Shown one piece after another: positions 14,427-43,966 of a stretch of DNA of 44,245 nucleotides (position 1 is its first letter; each line of letters starts with the position of its first letter). Source of the DNA: Lachnospiraceae bacterium (lineage in GTDB: Bacteria > Bacillota > Clostridia > Lachnospirales > Lachnospiraceae); contig JALEWA010000169.1 in NCBI GenBank assembly GCA_022788085.1, forward strand, positions 1 to 44,245, written 5' to 3'. The notes under the pieces were generated by a model, which saw only the letters and a program-made list of their open reading frames with translations, ran no database searches and was not told the origin of the DNA. The position numbers were made by a program, and so were the translations under genes.

Positions 14427-16952
14427 TTATTCTTTATTTCGCAAATATGTCACAAATAAATTACCATATTTTTCAAACATTTGCGTTGCATCTTTCATTC
14501 CTATCTTATATACCGTTCCACTATTTGGATTCATTACAACAACATTAAGTTCATTAAATCCAATCACGAGCACTGCATCATCATTATCTAACGTTACCAG
14601 TACCGGAATATCCTGATTTACATAATATAGTACTGCATCCAGACTTACGCCACTAAGCTCAAGAACCTGTGTATTCGTCATACTTTCTTGCAAAATCTCT
14701 GTAACTGTCATTCCATTATCAAGCATACTCTGCGTATTTCTGGAAATTCCTGCAAAGGACAAAATAGTATTCAGACAAACTGCAAGGGCAGAAGTATTCT
14801 CTTCCTTCATGTTTCCCTTTATCGCCATAATCTGATTTCTGGTACTTCTGCTGGTTTTCTTCCAAATATAGTCACCATTCTCATTGATAACCGTTCCGCT
14901 CTTTTCATATGCCAGATTAATTGCGTCAGATGAATGTGTAAAGGTTCCCATGATTCCTTCCTTACCATATACGTAGAATCTCTCAACCGGCTTCTCAACC
15001 TGAATCGCCAATTCTCTTGTTCCTTCAAAAATAACCTCCTTAGGTTCTGTGAATTTCAAGTTCTTTTGCTCAATGCTTCCCTTTAATACAAGCTGCACAA
15101 TTTTCTCATAATCCTGTGTTGCAACTACTTCTACTGTATTATAGCCACTCTCTTCTATAATATTATTAACGATCTGGTCATCAGCAATTTCCTGATAACC
15201 GGTTCCCTTTTCATCCTTTTCCACACGTTTTAACGTAATCAGATTATCTGTTATTGTACTTCCTACAACATAAGCACCCGGTTGTTCATAACTTTTCAGT
15301 ATATCTCCATCCTCATTCTGAATGAAAACAGCATACATCGGAAATGTAATAGCACCATTATAGTCCTCACTGATGTCTGTATAATGTGCAATTCCATAGA
15401 TCAAATCCTCACCAATAAAGCCCAAAGGAAGAATACGCTTTCCCCCCTGAACACTAATCTCCTTGCGAACACCCGTATTCAGATTCATTAAAATCAGCTT
15501 TGTGCAATCATATGCATTGCTCGCATTCTGCCAGACCAGCATTTCATCGCTGTCTGAAACCTGAAAGCTTCCTTCCTGAAGCTCAGATGCAACCTCTGCG
15601 TAGCTTTGTTCCTCCATGTTGATTGCAAGAATGGAGCCATCCAGATACAAATACACCGTACCTGTCTTATTTACATAGGAAAGCTGTTCCACATCAGCTT
15701 TTAAAGTAGCAAAGGATTTATAATATGGTATGAAGATACGCTCTTCTACTGTATTAACCATACCATTATATTCATAAATCTGGATGCCGACTCTACCCTC
15801 CTCGCGTCCACGATTCATATATCCATATACCATAAAGGTTACATTTCCCGTTTCATCTATACTTAATATCTTAATATCATGCTGATTATGATAGGTTCTT
15901 ATATCCATCTTGTCATAAAAACTAAAAAGACTGGAGAATTTCTTATCTGCTGCATGATAACAGAAAAGCTGGTCTTCATTAACAAATGCAAGGTTACTTC
16001 CACCATCACTTTCCATCATCTGTACTTTACTGTCACGGATGCCTAACATAATCTTATTGCTTGCATAAACATCTGCTTGCGTATCAAAAATCTGGTTCAT
16101 GGTTCTTTCATAATCCAGAAGATACACTCTGTCCGTTGTATAACGGATCTGATAATATTCACTGACAAGATAGTTGTACTTGATCGTATCCTTTACAGAC
16201 TGTACCACATAATTCATTCGAACAGAAGCAGTCTGTTTCTCTATTTCCTGAATGATAATATCAGGCTCAGTCAGCTTTGCAATCTGTAAATTGGCCCATG
16301 TAATCTGGCTAAGGCTGCAATGAATATCCACCTTGCTTAAGGTTGTATTATCTCCCTTGGAATTTGATTCCAGATAAGCAACCAAGTCTTTTGCCTTCTC
16401 CTTATCAAAGGTTCTTTCATGAAAATCTTTTACAAAGGCAAGCTTCTCTAAGGTATAGTAATCATCAGCATCTATGATCCGTGTATAATAATTAATGGTT
16501 TCTGCTGATGTTTCTACTTTAAGTATCCAGTTATACTCCTGCTGCTTTTCAATCAAATCCTTAATTGTTACAGATACCTTAATTGAGTCTGCATCTTCGT
16601 TATAATCAGTAATCTGCGTACTCTCTACAAGTCTGCTTCCATCAATGCTTCTGACCTCAAAGGAGAGGCTTTTTATCTCATTATTATATTTATCAATTAC
16701 AAAGGAAAGCTTTCTGCCTGTTTCCAAAGGCGTTATGGTATCCCTTAAAAGCCGACCGTCCATCTCCTGACGGTAGCCATAAAGTGTATTAAACTCGATG
16801 CCTCCTGTAGTCATATGAACAAGTGGTAGTGTTGCCGAATCCATGGTTGCCGTCATATCTGCATTTCCCTTATTATATAAACTGCTGCTTATTACAATAG
16901 TCAGAAAAAATACTGCAATACAGACAATTACTTTAATGATTACCTTTTTCAT
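14427..16952 (-). CDS. Large membrane-anchored protein with degenerate C39-like tail
   Basis: An 841-residue protein with one N-terminal membrane segment (residues 5-26) and an extracytoplasmic body. The middle (about 270-640) has repeating beta-strand segments suggestive of a propeller-like fold, not firmly assigned. The last 130 residues resemble a C39-type papain-like fold: Cys726 within SALAVCLNTILSFAG, then YYVNQDIPVLVTLDN, then VLVIGF and a VVVMNPNSG segment. The usual catalytic His is replaced by Asp in NDDAVLVIGF, so protease activity is doubtful; it may bind a peptide or be a relic. It follows the methyltransferase gene by 27 bases. Function unknown, possibly envelope-related. Confidence 0.68.
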   Translation of the reverse strand: MKKVIIKVIVCIAVFFLTIVISSSLYNKGNADMTATMDSATLPLVHMTTGGIEFNTLYGYRQEMDGRLLRDTITPLETGRKLSFVIDKYNNEIKSLSFEVRSIDGSRLVESTQITDYNEDADSIKVSVTIKDLIEKQQEYNWILKVETSAETINYYTRIIDADDYYTLEKLAFVKDFHERTFDKEKAKDLVAYLESNSKGDNTTLSKVDIHCSLSQITWANLQIAKLTEPDIIIQEIEKQTASVRMNYVVQSVKDTIKYNYLVSEYYQIRYTTDRVYLLDYERTMNQIFDTQADVYASNKIMLGIRDSKVQMMESDGGSNLAFVNEDQLFCYHAADKKFSSLFSFYDKMDIRTYHNQHDIKILSIDETGNVTFMVYGYMNRGREEGRVGIQIYEYNGMVNTVEERIFIPYYKSFATLKADVEQLSYVNKTGTVYLYLDGSILAINMEEQSYAEVASELQEGSFQVSDSDEMLVWQNASNAYDCTKLILMNLNTGVRKEISVQGGKRILPLGFIGEDLIYGIAHYTDISEDYNGAITFPMYAVFIQNEDGDILKSYEQPGAYVVGSTITDNLITLKRVEKDEKGTGYQEIADDQIVNNIIEESGYNTVEVVATQDYEKIVQLVLKGSIEQKNLKFTEPKEVIFEGTRELAIQVEKPVERFYVYGKEGIMGTFTHSSDAINLAYEKSGTVINENGDYIWKKTSRSTRNQIMAIKGNMKEENTSALAVCLNTILSFAGISRNTQSMLDNGMTVTEILQESMTNTQVLELSGVSLDAVLYYVNQDIPVLVTLDNDDAVLVIGFNELNVVVMNPNSGTVYKIGMKDATQMFEKYGNLFVTYLRNKE

Positions 16953-19962: not shown

Positions 19963-21490
<1,528 letters not shown>

Positions 21491-22345
21491 TTATGATATC
21501 GCCTCAGCACCTGCAATAATTTCTGTTAATTCCTGCGTAATAGAACTTTGTCTTGCTCTGTTGTAGAGAAGGGAAAGCTGATTGATCATCTCGTCAGCAT
21601 TGCTGGTCGCATTATCCATCGCCTGCATTCTGGCTCCGTTTTCACTGGCAACAGATTCAATCATAGCCCCGTAAATCAGACTTGTGATATACTTAGGAAT
21701 GATTAAATCAACTGCTTCTTCTGTTTCCGGCTCAAATTCCAGAACTGCCTTATTCTCCTCTTCCTTCCGCTCATCCTCTACCTTAACAGGGAGCAGCTTT
21801 AACAGGGTTGGTACATGCGTCACAGTATTCTTAAATCCCGTATATGCGACATAGATTTCCCCGATTTCACCTGCCGCAAAATCCTCCAGCACACGATTAC
21901 TGATTGTCATGGCATCCGCATACGCCGGTTCTTCAATCATGTCGGAATAATCCTCACGAACTTCAAATCCAAACTTTGCGAGTGCATCCCTTCCCTTGCT
22001 TCCTACCGCATAGACTACAACGTCTTCCTTATCGAACTCACCGTTTTTGACCAGCTTCACAATATTGGAATTATAGCCTCCGGCCAACCCTCGATTGGCT
22101 GTAATCACAATAATTCCTTTTTTACCGTTAGAAGCTGCACGCAAATACGGATGGTCAATATTTCCTGCCTTTGACAGCATGGAAGCTACGGTATCATACA
22201 TACAGGAAAAATATGTCCTGGAACGCTCCGCACGTCCCTTGGCACGCTGTAGCTTTACCGTAGATACCAGCTTCATTGCCTTTGTAATCTGCTGCGTACT
22301 TTGTACAGAGCCCTTACGCCTTTTTATATCTCTCATGGAAGCCAT
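21491..22345 (-). CDS. atpG: F1Fo ATP synthase gamma subunit
   Basis: A 284-residue gamma subunit, the central rotor shaft. The N-terminal helix (MRDIKRRKGSVQSTQQITKA) and C-terminal helix (MQAMDNATSNADEMINQLSL, then RARQSSITQELTEIIAGA) are canonical, with ITANRGLAGGYN in between. Start supported by AAAGGAG upstream. Thirty-eight bases separate it from atpA. Confidence 0.97.
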   Translation of the reverse strand: MASMRDIKRRKGSVQSTQQITKAMKLVSTVKLQRAKGRAERSRTYFSCMYDTVASMLSKAGNIDHPYLRAASNGKKGIIVITANRGLAGGYNSNIVKLVKNGEFDKEDVVVYAVGSKGRDALAKFGFEVREDYSDMIEEPAYADAMTISNRVLEDFAAGEIGEIYVAYTGFKNTVTHVPTLLKLLPVKVEDERKEEENKAVLEFEPETEEAVDLIIPKYITSLIYGAMIESVASENGARMQAMDNATSNADEMINQLSLLYNRARQSSITQELTEIIAGAEAIS

Positions 22346-22383
22346 AAGAAAACTCCTTTCCTATTCAAAGATGTCCACAGCTT

Positions 22384-23919
<1,536 letters not shown>

Positions 23920-39061: not shown

Positions 39062-39850
39062 ATGAAAATTGAAAAAGTAAATGATCATCAGATTCGTTGT
39101 ACCCTTACCAAAGCTGATTTAGCAGATCGTGAACTGAAAATCAGTGAACTGGCTTATGGAACGGAAAAGGCAAAAAGTTTATTCAAGGATATGATGCAGC
39201 AGGCATCTTATGAATTTGGATTTGATGCTGAAGATATACCGCTTATGATTGAAGCAATACCTTTGAATTCAGAATGTATTGTTCTGGTAATTACGAAAGT
39301 AGAAGATCCGGAGGAGCTTGATACAAGATTTTCCAAATTTGCTCCTTCTGTCCACGATGAAGACGAGGATAACGATGACAGCAATACCTTAGATAATATG
39401 CTGCAAAGTCTTTCCGAAGGTGCAGATGATGTTTTGGATCTCTTTAAGAAGATTCACGACACTAAGGTTACAGATACCATTGCTGATGCAGCAGATTCTC
39501 TTGTAAAGCAGGCAGGAAGTAAAGAAGTTTCCAAGAAGCCTGTTAAGGTTTCTGTTGAGTTAACAAGAATCTATTCCTTTGATTCTCTGGCGCAGGTAAT
39601 CCGTCTTGCACATGTGCTTTCTGCACATTATGATGGAAAGAACTCTCTTTACAAGAACGAGAAATTATCTTCCTATATTCTTGTAGTAACCCAGTCAGAG
39701 CATACACCTCAGGAATTTAATAAAATCTGTAACATGCTTTCTGAATATGGTAATCCTGAAAAGTTCGTATCCGCTAGTGAAGCATATATGGAAGAGCATT
39801 TTGAACCTGTCATTAAAGATAAGGCAATTCAATCTCTTTCTCTGGTATAA
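39062..39850 (+). CDS. mecA: MecA-like adaptor protein
   Basis: A 262-residue MecA/YpbH/NegB-family protein. The N-terminal domain (MKIEKVNDHQIRCTLTKADL, then LFKDMMQQASYEFGF) and C-terminal domain (IYSFDSLAQVIRLAHVLS, then SLYKNEKLSSYILVV) are both present, joined by an acidic linker (about 100-120). MecA targets proteins to the ClpC protease. It is monocistronic, with its own promoter and a strong terminator. Confidence 0.88.
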   Translation: MKIEKVNDHQIRCTLTKADLADRELKISELAYGTEKAKSLFKDMMQQASYEFGFDAEDIPLMIEAIPLNSECIVLVITKVEDPEELDTRFSKFAPSVHDEDEDNDDSNTLDNMLQSLSEGADDVLDLFKKIHDTKVTDTIADAADSLVKQAGSKEVSKKPVKVSVELTRIYSFDSLAQVIRLAHVLSAHYDGKNSLYKNEKLSSYILVVTQSEHTPQEFNKICNMLSEYGNPEKFVSASEAYMEEHFEPVIKDKAIQSLSLV

Positions 39851-39922: not shown

Positions 39923-40117
39923 TTAATTCAATTCGGCAATCTTAGCCATAAGGGAATCAATATCCATACCATGTACCATTGCTGCTTCTTCAAGGGATTC
40001 TCCCTGAGCAGATGGACATCCAAGGCAATGCATTCCTGCTTCCATAAGAACAGGTGCTACCTCCGGCTTCATTCTTAAGATTTCTCCAATTGTCATTTCT
40101 TTGGTTATTGCTGCCAT
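39923..40117 (-). CDS. DUF1858 small redox-disulfide protein
   Basis: A 64-residue protein of the DUF1858 type (hybrid-cluster-protein-associated redox disulfide domain): [24 protein letters not shown] followed by CxxC in [17 protein letters not shown] precedes the start. The Cys pair could bind a metal or undergo redox change. It lies divergently from the pflB region but its role is unknown; the family is often near nitrosative- or oxidative-stress genes. Confidence 0.82.
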
Positions 40118-40485
40118 CAGCTTCTCCTCCTTTTCATTTATATATAAGACTAAATGCTATACAAGTAGGGATTTTTGTCCTTTTTACATTGCATTATTCT
40201 TTGTTACTGTTCACTTCGTTCCAGTAACTATTCTTCCACTATAATACTTTATTCAGTTATTATCAAGTCCTTCGTTATTTTTAACAATTTTTTTATAAAC
40301 TATTCCGTTCTGTACAAGAAAAAGTACAAATTAAGGTGTTGACGTGTATACAAACTTGAGTCTATAATACACTTACAGAATGTTATGACAAAAGGTCAAT
40401 ACAAAAGAGAGATGACATTCTAACTTGAGTAACTAGCGGTGTAATCCGCATATTAATTTTTTTAAATTTTAGGAGGCTTTGCAAA
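40118..40485. other. Intergenic region before pflB
   Basis: About 370 AT-rich bases holding the pflB promoter. GTTACTG (40203-40209) pairs with CAGTAAC (40222-40228). TTGTAC is repeated on the minus strand with a 6-base gap between about 40313 and 40332. The nonamer AACTTGAGT occurs at 40353-40361, in the promoter spacer, and at 40422-40430, in the leader. A weak stem (GCGG/CCGC, 40436-40449) followed by T residues could attenuate transcription. No gene seen. Confidence 0.5.
40339..40368 (+). promoter_or_regulatory. pflB promoter
   Basis: TTGACG (40339-40344) and a perfect TATAAT (40363-40368) are separated by 18 bp, leaving a leader of about 110 bases before pflB. Confidence 0.75.
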
Positions 40486-42525
40486 ATGAGACCAGAGTGG
40501 AAAGATTTTGTAGGTGGCAAATGGGAAAGCGAAGTTAACGTACGTGACTTCATTCAGAAGAACTTTACTCCATATGATGGAGACGAATCCTTCTTAGCAG
40601 GTCCTACACAGGATACTAAGGATTTATGGCAGATGGTTCTTGATCTTCAGAAGAAGGAAAGAGAAGCAGGCGGTGTTCTTGATATGGACACAAAGGTTAT
40701 CTCTACTATCACTTCTCATGGACCGGGATACTTAGACAAGAGCAAGGAGAAGATCGTAGGATTCCAGACAGATAAGCCTTTCAAGCGTTCTTTACAGCCT
40801 TACGGCGGTATCAGAATGGCAGAGAAAGCTTGCGCAGATAACGGATACGAAGTAGATCCTGAAATCAGCGAGTTCTTCTCTACACATAGAAAGACACATA
40901 ACGCTGGCTGTTTCGATGCTTACAATCAGGAAATGAGAGCTTGTCGTTCAGCTCATATCATCACAGGTCTTCCTGATGCATACGGACGTGGACGTATCAT
41001 TGGTGACTACAGACGTGTTGCTTTATATGGTATTGACTTCTTAATCGAAGACAAGCAGGCACAGAAGGATTCTACAGGACGTGTTATGACAGATGATGTT
41101 ATCCGTCTTCGTGAGGAACTTTCAGAGCAGATTACAGCATTAAAGATGATGAAGGAAATGGCAGCTTCTTACGGATGCGATATTTCCAAACCGGCTACTA
41201 ATGTTCAGGAAGCTATCCAGGCTACATACTTTGGCTATCTGTGTGCTGTTAAGGAGCAGAACGGTGCAGCTATGTCCTTAGGACGTACTTCTACTTTCCT
41301 TGACTGCTACGCTCAGAGAGACTTAAAGAATGGTACTTTCACAGAAGAGCAGATTCAGGAGTTCGTTGATCACTTCATCATGAAGTTACGTTGCGTTAAG
41401 TTCGCTCGTACACCTGAATACAACCAGATCTTCGCCGGTGACCCTGTATGGGTAACAGAATCCTTAGGTGGTGTTGGCGTTGATGGACGTCCATTAGTAA
41501 CAAAGATGTCCTTCCGTTACTTAAATACATTAACAAACCTTGGACCTTCTCCAGAACCAAACTTAACAGTTCTTTGGTCTACAAGACTTCCAGAAGCTTG
41601 GAAGAAGTACTGTGCTAAGATGTCTATCCAGACCTCTTCTATCCAGTATGAGAACGATGACCTTATGAGAGTAACTCATGGTGATGATTACGGTATCGCT
41701 TGCTGTGTATCTTCCATGGTTATCGGTAAGGAAATGCAGTTCTTCGGTGCTCGTGCTAACGTTGCTAAGTGCTTACTGTATGCATTAAACGGTGGTGTTG
41801 ATGAAGTTACCAAGAAGCAGGTAGGTCCTAAGTATCGTCCTGTTGAAGGTGATGTTCTTGATTACGATGACGTAATGAGCAAATTCATCGATATGCTTGA
41901 GTGGCAGGCAGATGTATATGTAAATACATTAAATATCATTCACTATATGCATGACAAGTACTGCTATGAAAGAGCTGAAATGGCACTTCATGACAGAGAC
42001 GTTAAGCGTTACTTTGCTACAGGTGTTGCTGGTCTGTCTATCGTTGCTGACTCTTTATCTGCAATCAAGTATGCTAAGGTTGAGCCAATCCGTGATGAAG
42101 ATGGTATCATTGTTGACTTCAAGACAACAGGAGACTTCCCTAAGTATGGTAATGATGATGACCGTGTAGACTCAATCGCTCAGGAAATCGTTCATAAGTT
42201 CATGACTGCTATCAGAAGACATCATACTTATAGAAATGGTATTCCTACAACCTCTATCCTTACTATTACTTCTAACGTAACATATGGTAAGGCAACAGGT
42301 AACACACCTGATGGACGTAAGAAGGGACAGCCATTCGCTCCAGGTGCTAACCCAATGCATGGACGTGATACTCATGGTGCTGTAGCTTCCTTGTCTTCAG
42401 TAGCTAAGCTTCCATTCAAGGATGCTCAGGATGGTATTTCTAATACATTTACTATCATCCCTAGTGCACTCGGAAAAGAAGCTAAGGTATTCTCTGGTGA
42501 TATCGAGGTTGACTTAAATAAATAA
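40486..42525 (+). CDS. pflB: Pyruvate formate-lyase, large part lacking the glycyl-radical domain
   Basis: A 679-residue protein closely resembling PflB. The active-site pair Cys406-Cys407 is in [12 protein letters not shown] (codons 41701-41706), with [12 protein letters not shown] following. It ends at [11 protein letters not shown] with a TAA stop. Canonical PflB (760 residues in E. coli) continues about 80 residues to a C-terminal loop RVSGYAV carrying the radical Gly. That segment is absent and encoded separately at 42841-43080. AGGAGG precedes the start by 9 bases. The reaction, pyruvate plus CoA to acetyl-CoA plus formate, needs a glycyl radical, so this polypeptide alone should be inactive. 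Codon use is that of a highly expressed gene. Confidence 0.95.
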
Positions 42526-42551
42526 TCATTTTGGAAGGAAAGGTGTTACTT

Positions 42552-42758
42552 ATGGATGAGAAATCAATGATTGATGATCTTGTTGCACAGCTTGATGCCG
42601 GCTTCTCAAAACCAAATGCCGTAGGTCATGTAAATGTAGAAGTTGACGACAGCGTTTCTACGAAAGAAGTGCAAACCCTTGGTTGCACTGACTGTTCCAG
42701 AACTCCCCTTGCATGCAGTGTTCCTACACTGCATCAGGGACTAGAAGATTATGAATAG
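42552..42758 (+). CDS. Small Cys-containing protein between the PFL parts
   Basis: A 68-residue protein not recognised as a known family. The ATG at 42552 is chosen: GGAAGGAAAGG lies 8 bases upstream. Residues 6-32 (MIDDLVAQLDAGF..., then GHVNVEV) resemble the first 30 residues of the neighbouring glycyl-radical protein ([16 protein letters not shown], then HLNVNVL), but the RVSGYAV loop is missing. Instead there is a tail with Cys45, Cys48 and Cys55 (CTDCSRTPLACSVP), a CxxC plus a third Cys. It may be a decayed or repurposed copy of the radical domain that docks on PflB, with a metal or redox function. It is not a frameshift remnant: frame and ribosome site are its own. Confidence 0.72.
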   Translation: MDEKSMIDDLVAQLDAGFSKPNAVGHVNVEVDDSVSTKEVQTLGCTDCSRTPLACSVPTLHQGLEDYE

Positions 42759-42759
42759 A

Positions 42760-42808
42760 GCACGAATTCTGATTCGTGCAGGAGAATTTAACTTATGTTT
42801 CATTCTCC
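42760..42808 (+). other. Tandem hairpins before the glycyl-radical gene
   Basis: GCACGAAT (42760-42767) pairs perfectly with ATTCGTGC (42772-42779), and GGAGAAT (42781-42787) pairs with ATTCTCC (42802-42808). They begin 1 base after the middle gene stop and precede the AGGAGG ribosome site of the radical-domain gene. No T tract follows, so they more likely mark mRNA processing or protect the downstream segment than end transcription. Confidence 0.6.
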
Positions 42809-42840
42809 ACTGGTATTGAATTTGATAGGAGGAATTAAAA

Positions 42841-43080
42841 ATGGCTGATTCAACTCAGGTAAACAATTTAGTAGCTTTATTAGATGGTTATGCTACAAAG
42901 GGTGGTCATCATCTTAATGTTAACGTATTAAACAGAGAGACTCTTTTAGATGCTCAGCAGCATCCAGAGAACTATCCTCAGTTAACAATCCGTGTATCTG
43001 GATACGCTGTTAACTTTATCAAGTTAACTCCAGAACAGCAGGCAGATGTAATCTCTCGTACATTCCACGAAGCAATCTAA
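42841..43080 (+). CDS. grcA: Free-standing glycyl-radical domain (GrcA/YfiD-like)
   Basis: A 79-residue protein equal to the C-terminal domain of PflB. DGY and [20 protein letters not shown] match the PFL C-terminal region, and [11 protein letters not shown] carries the expected radical Gly54 (codon 43000-43002), followed by [14 protein letters not shown]. It has its own ribosome site (AGGAGG, 8 bases upstream). In E. coli, YfiD/GrcA is a spare domain that repairs oxygen-cleaved PFL; here PflB has no such domain of its own, so this protein is presumably the required radical subunit. Ends at a strong terminator. The symbol reflects homology; essential function is inferred. Confidence 0.9.
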
Positions 43081-43099
43081 TTTCGTAGATGTATATATA

Positions 43100-43128
43100 C
43101 CCCGGAATAACTATTCCGGGGTTTTTTT
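43100..43128 (+). terminator. Terminator of the pflB-grcA operon
   Basis: CCCCGGAATA (43100-43109) and TATTCCGGGG (43112-43121) form a very stable stem followed by seven T residues. The T tract runs into the -35 of the next promoter. Confidence 0.9.
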
Positions 43129-43156
43129 GACACAAAGGATATAATAATGATACACT
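43127..43156 (+). promoter_or_regulatory. pflA promoter overlapping the terminator
   Basis: A perfect TTGACA (43127-43132) begins in the terminator T tract; TACACT (43151-43156) follows after 18 bp. It would allow pflA to be made independently of pflB. Confidence 0.6.
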
Positions 43157-43210: not shown

Positions 43211-43966
43211 ATGAAAGGAAGAATTCATTCTTTGGAGTCATTCGGAACTGTAGATGGACCGGGTGTACGTTATGTTGTTTTTGTACAAGGCTGTCCTATG
43301 AGATGTGCTTATTGCCACAATCCAGATACATGGGAAATGAATGCCGGTACGGAAATGGAGCCGTCTGAAATTATTGAAAACTATGAGAGAAATAAACCTT
43401 TTTACCGTGATGGTGGAATCACAGTAACAGGTGGCGAACCTCTTATGCAGATAGATTTTCTTCTCGAGCTCTTTACCTTGGCAAAAGAAAAAGGTATTCA
43501 CACATGCCTTGACACATCCGGTATTGCGTACAAGCCTAATGGAAATCCTGAATGGCTTGCAAAGATGGACAAGCTTTGTGCTGTTACAGATCTTGTTATG
43601 CTTGATATTAAGCATATTGACCCGGAAAAACATAAAGAGCTTGTAAAACAGCCTAATGATGGCATACTTGCCTTTGCAGAATATCTTGATAAAATGCATG
43701 TTGATGTATGGATTCGTCATGTTGTCGTTCCAGGCATTACCGATGATCCCGTATATCTTCATAAGCTTGGATATTTTATCGGTGGCTTAAGCAATCTAAA
43801 GGCTCTTGATGTATTACCATATCATACTATGGGAAAGAGTAAATATGAAAAGCTTGGCATGGAATATCCTCTTAAGGATGTACCACCTATGGACAAGAAT
43901 AAGATTCCTGAATTAAAACAATACATTTTGGATGGAATCAAGGAACGTCGTGGTGAAGCACAATAG
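43211..43966 (+). CDS. pflA: Pyruvate formate-lyase activating enzyme
   Basis: A 251-residue radical SAM enzyme. The [4Fe-4S] motif CPMRCAYC (Cys-x3-Cys-x2-Cys) is near residue 30; DGPGVRYVVFVQG precedes it, and GGITVTGGEP binds SAM. It abstracts hydrogen from the radical Gly, here presumably in the separate GrcA-like protein. The ATG at 43211 has AAGGAG 8 bases upstream; the TTG at 43205 is less likely. Length is normal (about 246 in E. coli). Confidence 0.95.
   Translation: MKGRIHSLESFGTVDGPGVRYVVFVQGCPMRCAYCHNPDTWEMNAGTEMEPSEIIENYERNKPFYRDGGITVTGGEPLMQIDFLLELFTLAKEKGIHTCLDTSGIAYKPNGNPEWLAKMDKLCAVTDLVMLDIKHIDPEKHKELVKQPNDGILAFAEYLDKMHVDVWIRHVVVPGITDDPVYLHKLGYFIGGLSNLKALDVLPYHTMGKSKYEKLGMEYPLKDVPPMDKNKIPELKQYILDGIKERRGEAQ

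Follow-up and report, generated by a model that had tools for sequence, protein, structure and literature searches.

Pyruvate formate-lyase (PFL) is a central enzyme of fermentation, and its radical is the part that oxygen destroys. In Escherichia coli a full-length PFL (PflB; PFL1 family, PDB 1h16) is accompanied by the small protein GrcA (YfiD; PDB 6owr) as a spare. According to the available text of PMC12338860, the glycine radical of GrcA takes a hydrogen from Cys419 of PFL after the activating enzyme PflA has acted. We analysed a stretch of 44,245 nucleotides from a Lachnospiraceae bacterium (contig JALEWA010000169.1 of assembly GCA_022788085.1; hereafter the window), in which the gene order is a PFL core of 679 amino acids (aa), a 68-aa open reading frame (ORF; the middle gene), a 79-aa protein with the loop RVSGYAV, and a 251-aa radical-SAM activase. 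The core resembles E. coli PflB (982.7 bits), and the 79-aa protein resembles E. coli GrcA (89.3 bits) and the C-terminus of E. coli PFL (87 bits). In contrast to E. coli, no full-length PFL was found in the source genome (G000), a 96% complete draft. We propose, with a probability of roughly 0.6, that the locus encodes a two-component PFL with a third, thiol-bearing small part.

A pyruvate formate-lyase encoded in two parts

The original prediction held that PflB ends at residue 679 without its radical domain and that RVSGYAV lies on a separate 79-aa gene, and the ORFs and their coordinates confirmed this. The C-terminus of the core reads ...GDIEVDLNK, with no cysteine in the tail and the stop codon at 42523-42525; grcA starts 315 bases past that stop. 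The model TIGR01255 (PFL1) matched the core with 1104.9 bits (cut-off 994.2) over model positions 2-665 of 744. Positions 666-744 were unmatched, and thus no glycyl radical domain was found on the same chain. From its sequence the core is filed here as a split variant of PFL1, not as a canonical TIGR01255 member. The Pfam model PF01228 (Gly_radical) was itself divided, with positions 1-50 on the core and 50-106 on the 79-aa protein. NF038360 (GrcA3) scored 158.0 bits on the latter protein against a cut-off of 158, with similar values in relatives, and the radical loop with Gly54 that characterizes this family was present. The role attached to the family, replacement of the damaged domain of a full-length PFL, did not fit this genome, since no full-length PFL was found there; the window GrcA may act in the manner of GrcA while being an obligate part of the enzyme.

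The draft genome comprises 3.69 Mb in 254 contigs. Searches returned one match to PF02901 and three to PF01228, the latter being the two halves described here and a second stand-alone GrcA. A radical loop of the PFL type was found only on separate small subunits, encoded twice. The earlier claim that GrcA is the only radical part therefore stands in that GrcA is the sole type of PFL radical domain in this genome, but there are two grcA genes, not one. PFOR-like matches were also present, all under the cut-off of the model, so PFL need not be the sole pyruvate route.

A GrcA scan of species genomes gave at least 583 relatives, and the best 80 loci were fetched. Most are labelled as Lachnospiraceae or as genera such as Blautia, Eisenbergiella and Acetatifactor, some simply as a bacterium, and one as Muribaculaceae. 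A core lay upstream of grcA in 57 loci, and the middle gene stood between core and grcA in 57/57. Among the remainder, two had the middle gene at a contig edge, ten had a Crp/Fnr gene upstream, and 11 had none of these. The 45 cores with full sequences measured 678-684 aa and ended in tails of the type GDIELDLNK. The break between core and GrcA is a fixed trait in these relatives.

Lachnospiraceae were also surveyed for the split, as the original prediction had proposed. The family sample held 120 genomes including G000, and 94 of them held PFL1 at E 1e-100: a split-length frame (680-733 aa) occurred in 43, a full-length frame (748 aa or more) in 48, and fragments only in 5. Both kinds of frame occurred in two genomes, G085 (L133/L149) and G119 (L128/L152), which form natural comparison pairs. 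In a phylum sample of 398 genomes, 120 held PFL1 at E 1e-150, and a split-length frame was present in two of these, G000 and G341, which belong to the same family. The matches in G146 and G317 were partial, and the rest were 740 aa or more, their radical loops not being checked individually. The middle gene was found in 30 of the 120 family genomes (E 2.1e-10 or better; a 31st, G085, matched through its GrcA at 5.5e-4) and in 2/398 phylum genomes, again G000 and G341. Within the family sample it was present in 27 of the 43 split genomes vs. none of the 46 with a full-length frame only.

An assembly error or a pseudogene, in which PflB would be a broken full-length enzyme, is suggested by the fact that the core and grcA share a reading frame in this genome. 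The identical break recurs, however, in all 57 core-bearing loci and the same architecture in the 43 sampled genomes, as expected from the earlier statement that this is no sequencing frameshift. The middle gene is under purifying selection (see below), and purine-rich ribosome sites, judged by eye, precede all four genes, in agreement with the claim that each part has its own. We regard this explanation as ruled out by the recurrence across relatives, and give it a negligible probability.

The middle protein and the cysteine tail in cis or in trans

The original prediction had noted that another gene and two hairpins lie between core and grcA, and these were found at 42552-42808. It mentioned the presence of the middle gene but missed that this gene is conserved, belongs to the system, and changes places with a cysteine tail borne by the core. 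The middle-gene alignment contained the window and 58 of the 59 proteins from the best 80 loci (L081, whose start lies outside the contig, was omitted). In comparisons of the window with 58 relatives, the rate of nonsynonymous differences (pN) was below that of synonymous differences (pS) in 58/58, with a median pS of 0.74 and a median pN of 0.22, indicating purifying selection.

The N-terminal half of the protein, IDDLVKMLDSGMAxGVGHVNVD, aligned by eye and without gaps with a 22-residue segment of GrcA. A profile-profile comparison (hhalign) between the middle protein and GrcA gave a pairwise E of 4.1e-6 over 32 columns (probability 87), and 49 of 59 middle proteins had a match to GrcA3 with an E of 1 or less, the strongest being 1.2e-4. 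The radical loop and the last helix of GrcA are absent; the tail TxGCTDCSRTPLACSVPTLHQGLDDY is found instead. RVSGY was present in none of the 59 relatives' middle proteins, nor in that of the window, so the protein does not qualify as a GrcA family member; by sequence, only its N-half is akin to GrcA. Of 89 rows, 79 keep the first cysteine of the tail and 88 the second, and the third is present in each of the 87 rows that extend that far. The first was replaced by S or N in 10/89, leaving two near-invariant cysteines. The segment LACSVPT in the tail was noticed, by sight only, to resemble the active-site stretch IACCVSSM.

The middle protein matched no dedicated family in Pfam or NCBIfam, and besides GrcA3 there were only weak, scattered matches. 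The RiPP (ribosomally synthesized and post-translationally modified peptide) family AC3_0185 matched 2/59 rows (best E 0.0099) and was rejected as chance. A search of the profile against PDB yielded no convincing chain and one chance-level match (E 3.9). In G000, a 71-aa ORF on another contig (L090:1300-1515, minus strand; G000:C252) has a CC pair and a weak match (E 6.9e-4) to the N-half of the middle protein. It adjoins a 448-aa ORF, has no Pfam match, and may be chance.

Split cores without a middle gene are longer, and the added residues hold cysteines, as in ...GCGDMACKVPTLHKGIDDDD (L134) and ...CDCGPDMSCGIPNLMEGIDD (L124). The tail count covered 113 rows; the motif that starts the tail was not found in 2 of the 57 cores from core-bearing loci or in 10 of the 23 fused rows of the survey, which dropped out. 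In the family survey, cysteine occurred in the tail of 0/28 cores adjoining a middle gene, and two or more cysteines in 16/17 without an adjacent one. The sole exception, L123 (G002), has no cysteine in the core tail and carries its middle gene on another contig. Counted per genome, a Cys-tailed core was present in 16/16 genomes without a middle gene vs. 0/29 with it. Fisher p is 2.6e-11, with related rows not being independent. All 55 counted cores from the best 80 loci had a middle gene and none had a tail cysteine. The thiols thus appear to be located, in cis or in trans, at the expected dock of the radical subunit.

A profile of the middle tail was run on the 17 core tails without an adjacent middle gene, and nine of them beat all of 100 shuffles each, with 5.8 to 33.6 bits. 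It is therefore probable that, in part of the family, the tails of core and middle protein share an origin and have been exchanged. Eight changes of the state "adjacent middle gene" were needed along the core tree, at least 4 of them forced by well-supported branches.

History of the cores, second grcA genes and layout of the locus

The core tree was built from 75 rows, of which 65 were survey cores no shorter than 600 aa, 9 came from the 57 core-bearing loci and one was the window core; 23 of 50 full-length family rows were fetched for it. All 52 split cores fell into one clade of 56 rows (Shimodaira-Hasegawa-like approximate likelihood ratio test, SH-aLRT, 99; drawn with midpoint rooting), with the other fused PFLs outside, and the first branches within the clade are split. 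Four fused enzymes were nested in it, L137-L139 together (100) and L140. The linker of L140 has a cysteine stretch, TCGCEEVTC, followed by a GrcA-like start, DANDQQIENLV, and by eye this resembles a fusion of a core tail with GrcA. The corresponding linker of L137-L139 has no cysteine. In the topology test, which left out 8 distant fused rows, a tree forcing all four fused rows outside the split clade was disfavoured (approximately unbiased test, p-AU = 0.032), while excluding only L137-L139 (p-AU = 0.077) or only L140 (0.228) was not rejected. A single split without rejoining is hence disfavoured only when all four rows are excluded together. Later rejoining of split enzymes within the clade is likely rather than shown, because the tested group was named after the tree had been seen.

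The second grcA of G000 (contig C15, L005:7084-7317) is 88% identical and runs to the contig end. It directly follows a Crp/Fnr-family gene (PF00027 and PF13545; stretch L005:6296-7317), and groESL-like ORFs were seen nearby by eye. Between the Crp/Fnr gene and this grcA lies the operator-like palindrome TGTAACATATGTTACA, the sole match in G000 to TGTAACNNNNGTTACA (control 0); no such palindrome was found in front of pflB. Among the best 80 loci, GTAAC-N4-GTTAC occurred in 8 of the 10 Crp/Fnr-linked ones, including the similar-looking L055 and L066, and was absent from L015 and L057. Of the 11 loci that have neither a core nor a Crp/Fnr gene, only L071 carried it. The GrcA alignment comprised the window, L005, and 37 of the 81 GrcAs from the best 80 loci. 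Two further observations concern grcA. Two identical GrcA proteins are encoded about 3 kb apart in L021 (2406-2648 and 5538-5780), each with GTAAC-N4-GTTAC upstream. A lone grcA stands divergent from spoIIIAA (sporulation stage III AA) in L083:3861-4808 and L052:2765-3709 (both minus strand), an arrangement that includes Kineothrix alysoides and is a third genomic setting of grcA.

Features of the locus are collected in Table 1. The two hairpins together had a folding energy of -22.4 kcal/mol (z = -2.74), and an equally good fold arose in 3/200 shuffles. They were absent from the list of the terminator scan, and their reading as a terminator was dropped for that reason. The scan does list a stem with a T run after grcA, which would allow the core, the middle gene and grcA to share a single transcript. 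Totals of the scans were near shuffle level (promoter-like 11 vs. 8.7, terminator-like 3 vs. 1.7). Just upstream of pflB lie a DUF1858/hybrid-cluster-associated small protein (39923-40117, minus strand) and a MecA adaptor (39062-39850, plus strand). Elsewhere in the window are two ATP synthase alpha/beta-family subunits of 501 and 466 aa (19963-23889, minus strand; an F-type operon by eye) and an ORF of 841 aa to which Pfam gave no match at E 1e-5 (14427-16952, minus strand).

Table 1. Positions of features of the split PFL locus, numbered within the window.
Feature	Position	Strand	Basis
Sigma-70-type promoter-like site TTGACG-18-TATAAT, 5' of pflB	40339..40368	+	Consensus scan, 11/12 matches; predicted
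PflB catalytic core, 679 aa, without radical domain	40486..42525	+	TIGR01255 match
Catalytic Cys406-Cys407 pair of the core	41701..41706	+	Sequence; role from E. coli C418/C419, as given in the available text of PMC12338860
Middle gene, 68 aa, GrcA-like N-half and cysteine tail TLGCTDCSRTPLACSVPTLHQGLEDYE	42552..42758	+	Conservation, profile match
Cysteine tail of middle protein, residues 39-68; Cys45, 48, 55	42666..42755	+	Alignment of 89 rows
Hairpin 1, gap between middle gene and grcA	42760..42779	+	Folding
Hairpin 2, gap between middle gene and grcA	42781..42808	+	Folding
GrcA3-type glycyl radical subunit, 79 aa, loop RVSGYAV	42841..43080	+	PF01228, NF038360
Codon of presumed radical glycine Gly54 of GrcA	43000..43002	+	Sequence, alignment with E. 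coli PFL and GrcA
Intrinsic-terminator-like stem 3' of grcA, then TTTTTT	43099..43122	+	10 pairs, 6 G-C
Promoter-like site 5' of pflA	43127..43156	+	Consensus scan, 10/12
PflA, radical-SAM activating enzyme, 251 aa, CPMRCAYC	43211..43966	+	TIGR02493, 294.4 bits, cut-off 231.75

Proposed mechanism, rival readings and known systems

We hypothesize that GrcA is the obligate radical subunit and would replace the missing C-terminal domain of the core. PflA would load the glycyl radical onto GrcA, from which it would move to the cysteine pair of the core. That GrcA docks in this way, is loaded by PflA and passes its radical on is, in our judgement, very probable. For the cysteine tail, action at the place where the radical subunit docks has about even odds; the suggestion comes from its location. 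In some lineages the tail extends the C-terminus of the core, at the very point where a radical domain would have started, and in others, including G000, it is carried by a 68-aa protein that would imitate the start of GrcA. As long as GrcA is missing or has been cleaved by oxygen, the tail would most likely fill or guard the socket, and may keep the active-site cysteines as a recoverable thiol or mixed disulfide until new GrcA arrives. The second grcA, with its Crp/Fnr gene and unique palindrome, would be a regulated source of replacement GrcA. The recovery from oxygen without remaking the large subunit that had been predicted for this arrangement fits the anatomy of the locus. More tentatively, and with somewhat less than even chances, the whole could be seen as a body, a disposable radical cartridge and a dedicated thiol plug, the plug having been shuttled several times between core tail and GrcA mimic, with the nested fused enzymes as later rejoinings.

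Several observations weigh against this proposal. In the available text of PMC8683613, an E. coli core truncated at residue 695 had too low an affinity for YfiD to be followed by isothermal titration calorimetry, its radical uptake was 32-fold less (the activated part was fully active), and YfiD without its N-terminal 60 residues was also a weak binder. Docking here must therefore differ from that in E. coli. Both GrcA copies of G000 fell just below the GrcA3 cut-off of 158 in the genome search (157.6, and 156.8 for the window copy). The predicted docking of the middle protein depends on the 32-column profile match, and the window's own middle protein was not among the 49 that touched the GrcA3 model. 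Seven of the 17 core tails (CACC or CC types) and L123 did not beat shuffles, and three of the nine that did scored <10 bits; by sequence, the core tails are similar in content but perhaps not one motif. The spacing of the tail cysteines varies between lineages, so that metal binding by them is uncertain. The middle proteins of L117 (2650-2838) and L118 (2766-3005; both minus strand) end after CTDC/CTTC and are shortened or decaying copies.

Three other readings differ on the tail. In the first the split pair works as proposed, but the tail could be a metal or iron-sulfur (Fe-S) site, an accessory that tunes radical transfer like the [4Fe-4S] small subunits of benzylsuccinate synthase (BSS). 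Most middle-protein rows do have three cysteines, but with two near-invariant ones, the first being S or N in 10/89 rows, variable spacing, and no match to an Fe-S family of Pfam or NCBIfam, the four conserved cysteines or family match of such a subunit were not found, and we consider this reading unlikely. We would give a similarly low weight to the middle protein being an inhibitor or assembly brake, which would take the socket in competition with GrcA and so hold PFL inactive until both GrcA and PflA are abundant, with the cysteines as a redox release switch. Its likeness to the N-half of GrcA, the missing radical loop and the position of its gene between core and grcA would suit such a role, but core-tailed lineages retain the cysteines though they have no free competitor. 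Lower still we place a built-in deactivase, in which the tail would donate a thiol that quenches the GrcA glycyl radical before oxygen cleaves the protein; conserved thiols, in cis or in trans, beside the expected position of the radical loop speak for it, but a replaceable GrcA lessens the need for quenching.

If the proposal of a two-component PFL with a thiol-bearing small part is true, the oxygen survival of strict gut anaerobes, through a replaceable radical subunit, a regulated spare gene and a conserved thiol guard, becomes testable with four small genes. The pair would also offer a natural split enzyme for the study of radical loading. The middle protein is a conserved small protein in central metabolism without a Pfam or NCBIfam name. 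The body, cartridge and plug arrangement, should it hold, would amount to a modular design by which gut anaerobes repair oxygen damage.

Among known systems, YfiD has a disordered N-terminal stretch of 60 residues (available text of PMC8683613), compared with 18 residues ahead of the 6owr match in the window GrcA. The BSS beta and gamma subunits are likewise small proteins that accompany a glycyl radical enzyme (available text of PMC12590467), and bind [4Fe-4S] in a fold like that of high-potential iron-sulfur proteins, but no relation to the middle protein, with its two near-invariant cysteines, was detected. Among the open-access papers listed, screened by titles and the starts of abstracts, none dealt with a split PFL or with the middle gene; subscription journals lie mostly outside this search, which thus does not show unpublished status. 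The closest solved chains to the core are PDB 38la_A and 38lb_A, both "Formate acetyltransferase" (1093 and 1131 bits). Neither was among the 34 PDB sequences matched with GrcA, so no radical domain was seen in either. The chain of 38la ends at the break, and that of 38lb extends beyond the core with ...GECDMCEMKELDDV, which has two cysteines, followed by 34 further residues unseen. NCBIfam NF038360, by name an autonomous glycyl radical cofactor (GrcA3), covers the radical part but not the middle gene or the cysteine tail. Given this model and the two structures, the split itself is likely known to specialists, as the original prediction had allowed; the middle protein, the switching of the cysteine tail between cis and trans, and the Crp/Fnr-linked second GrcA may be new.
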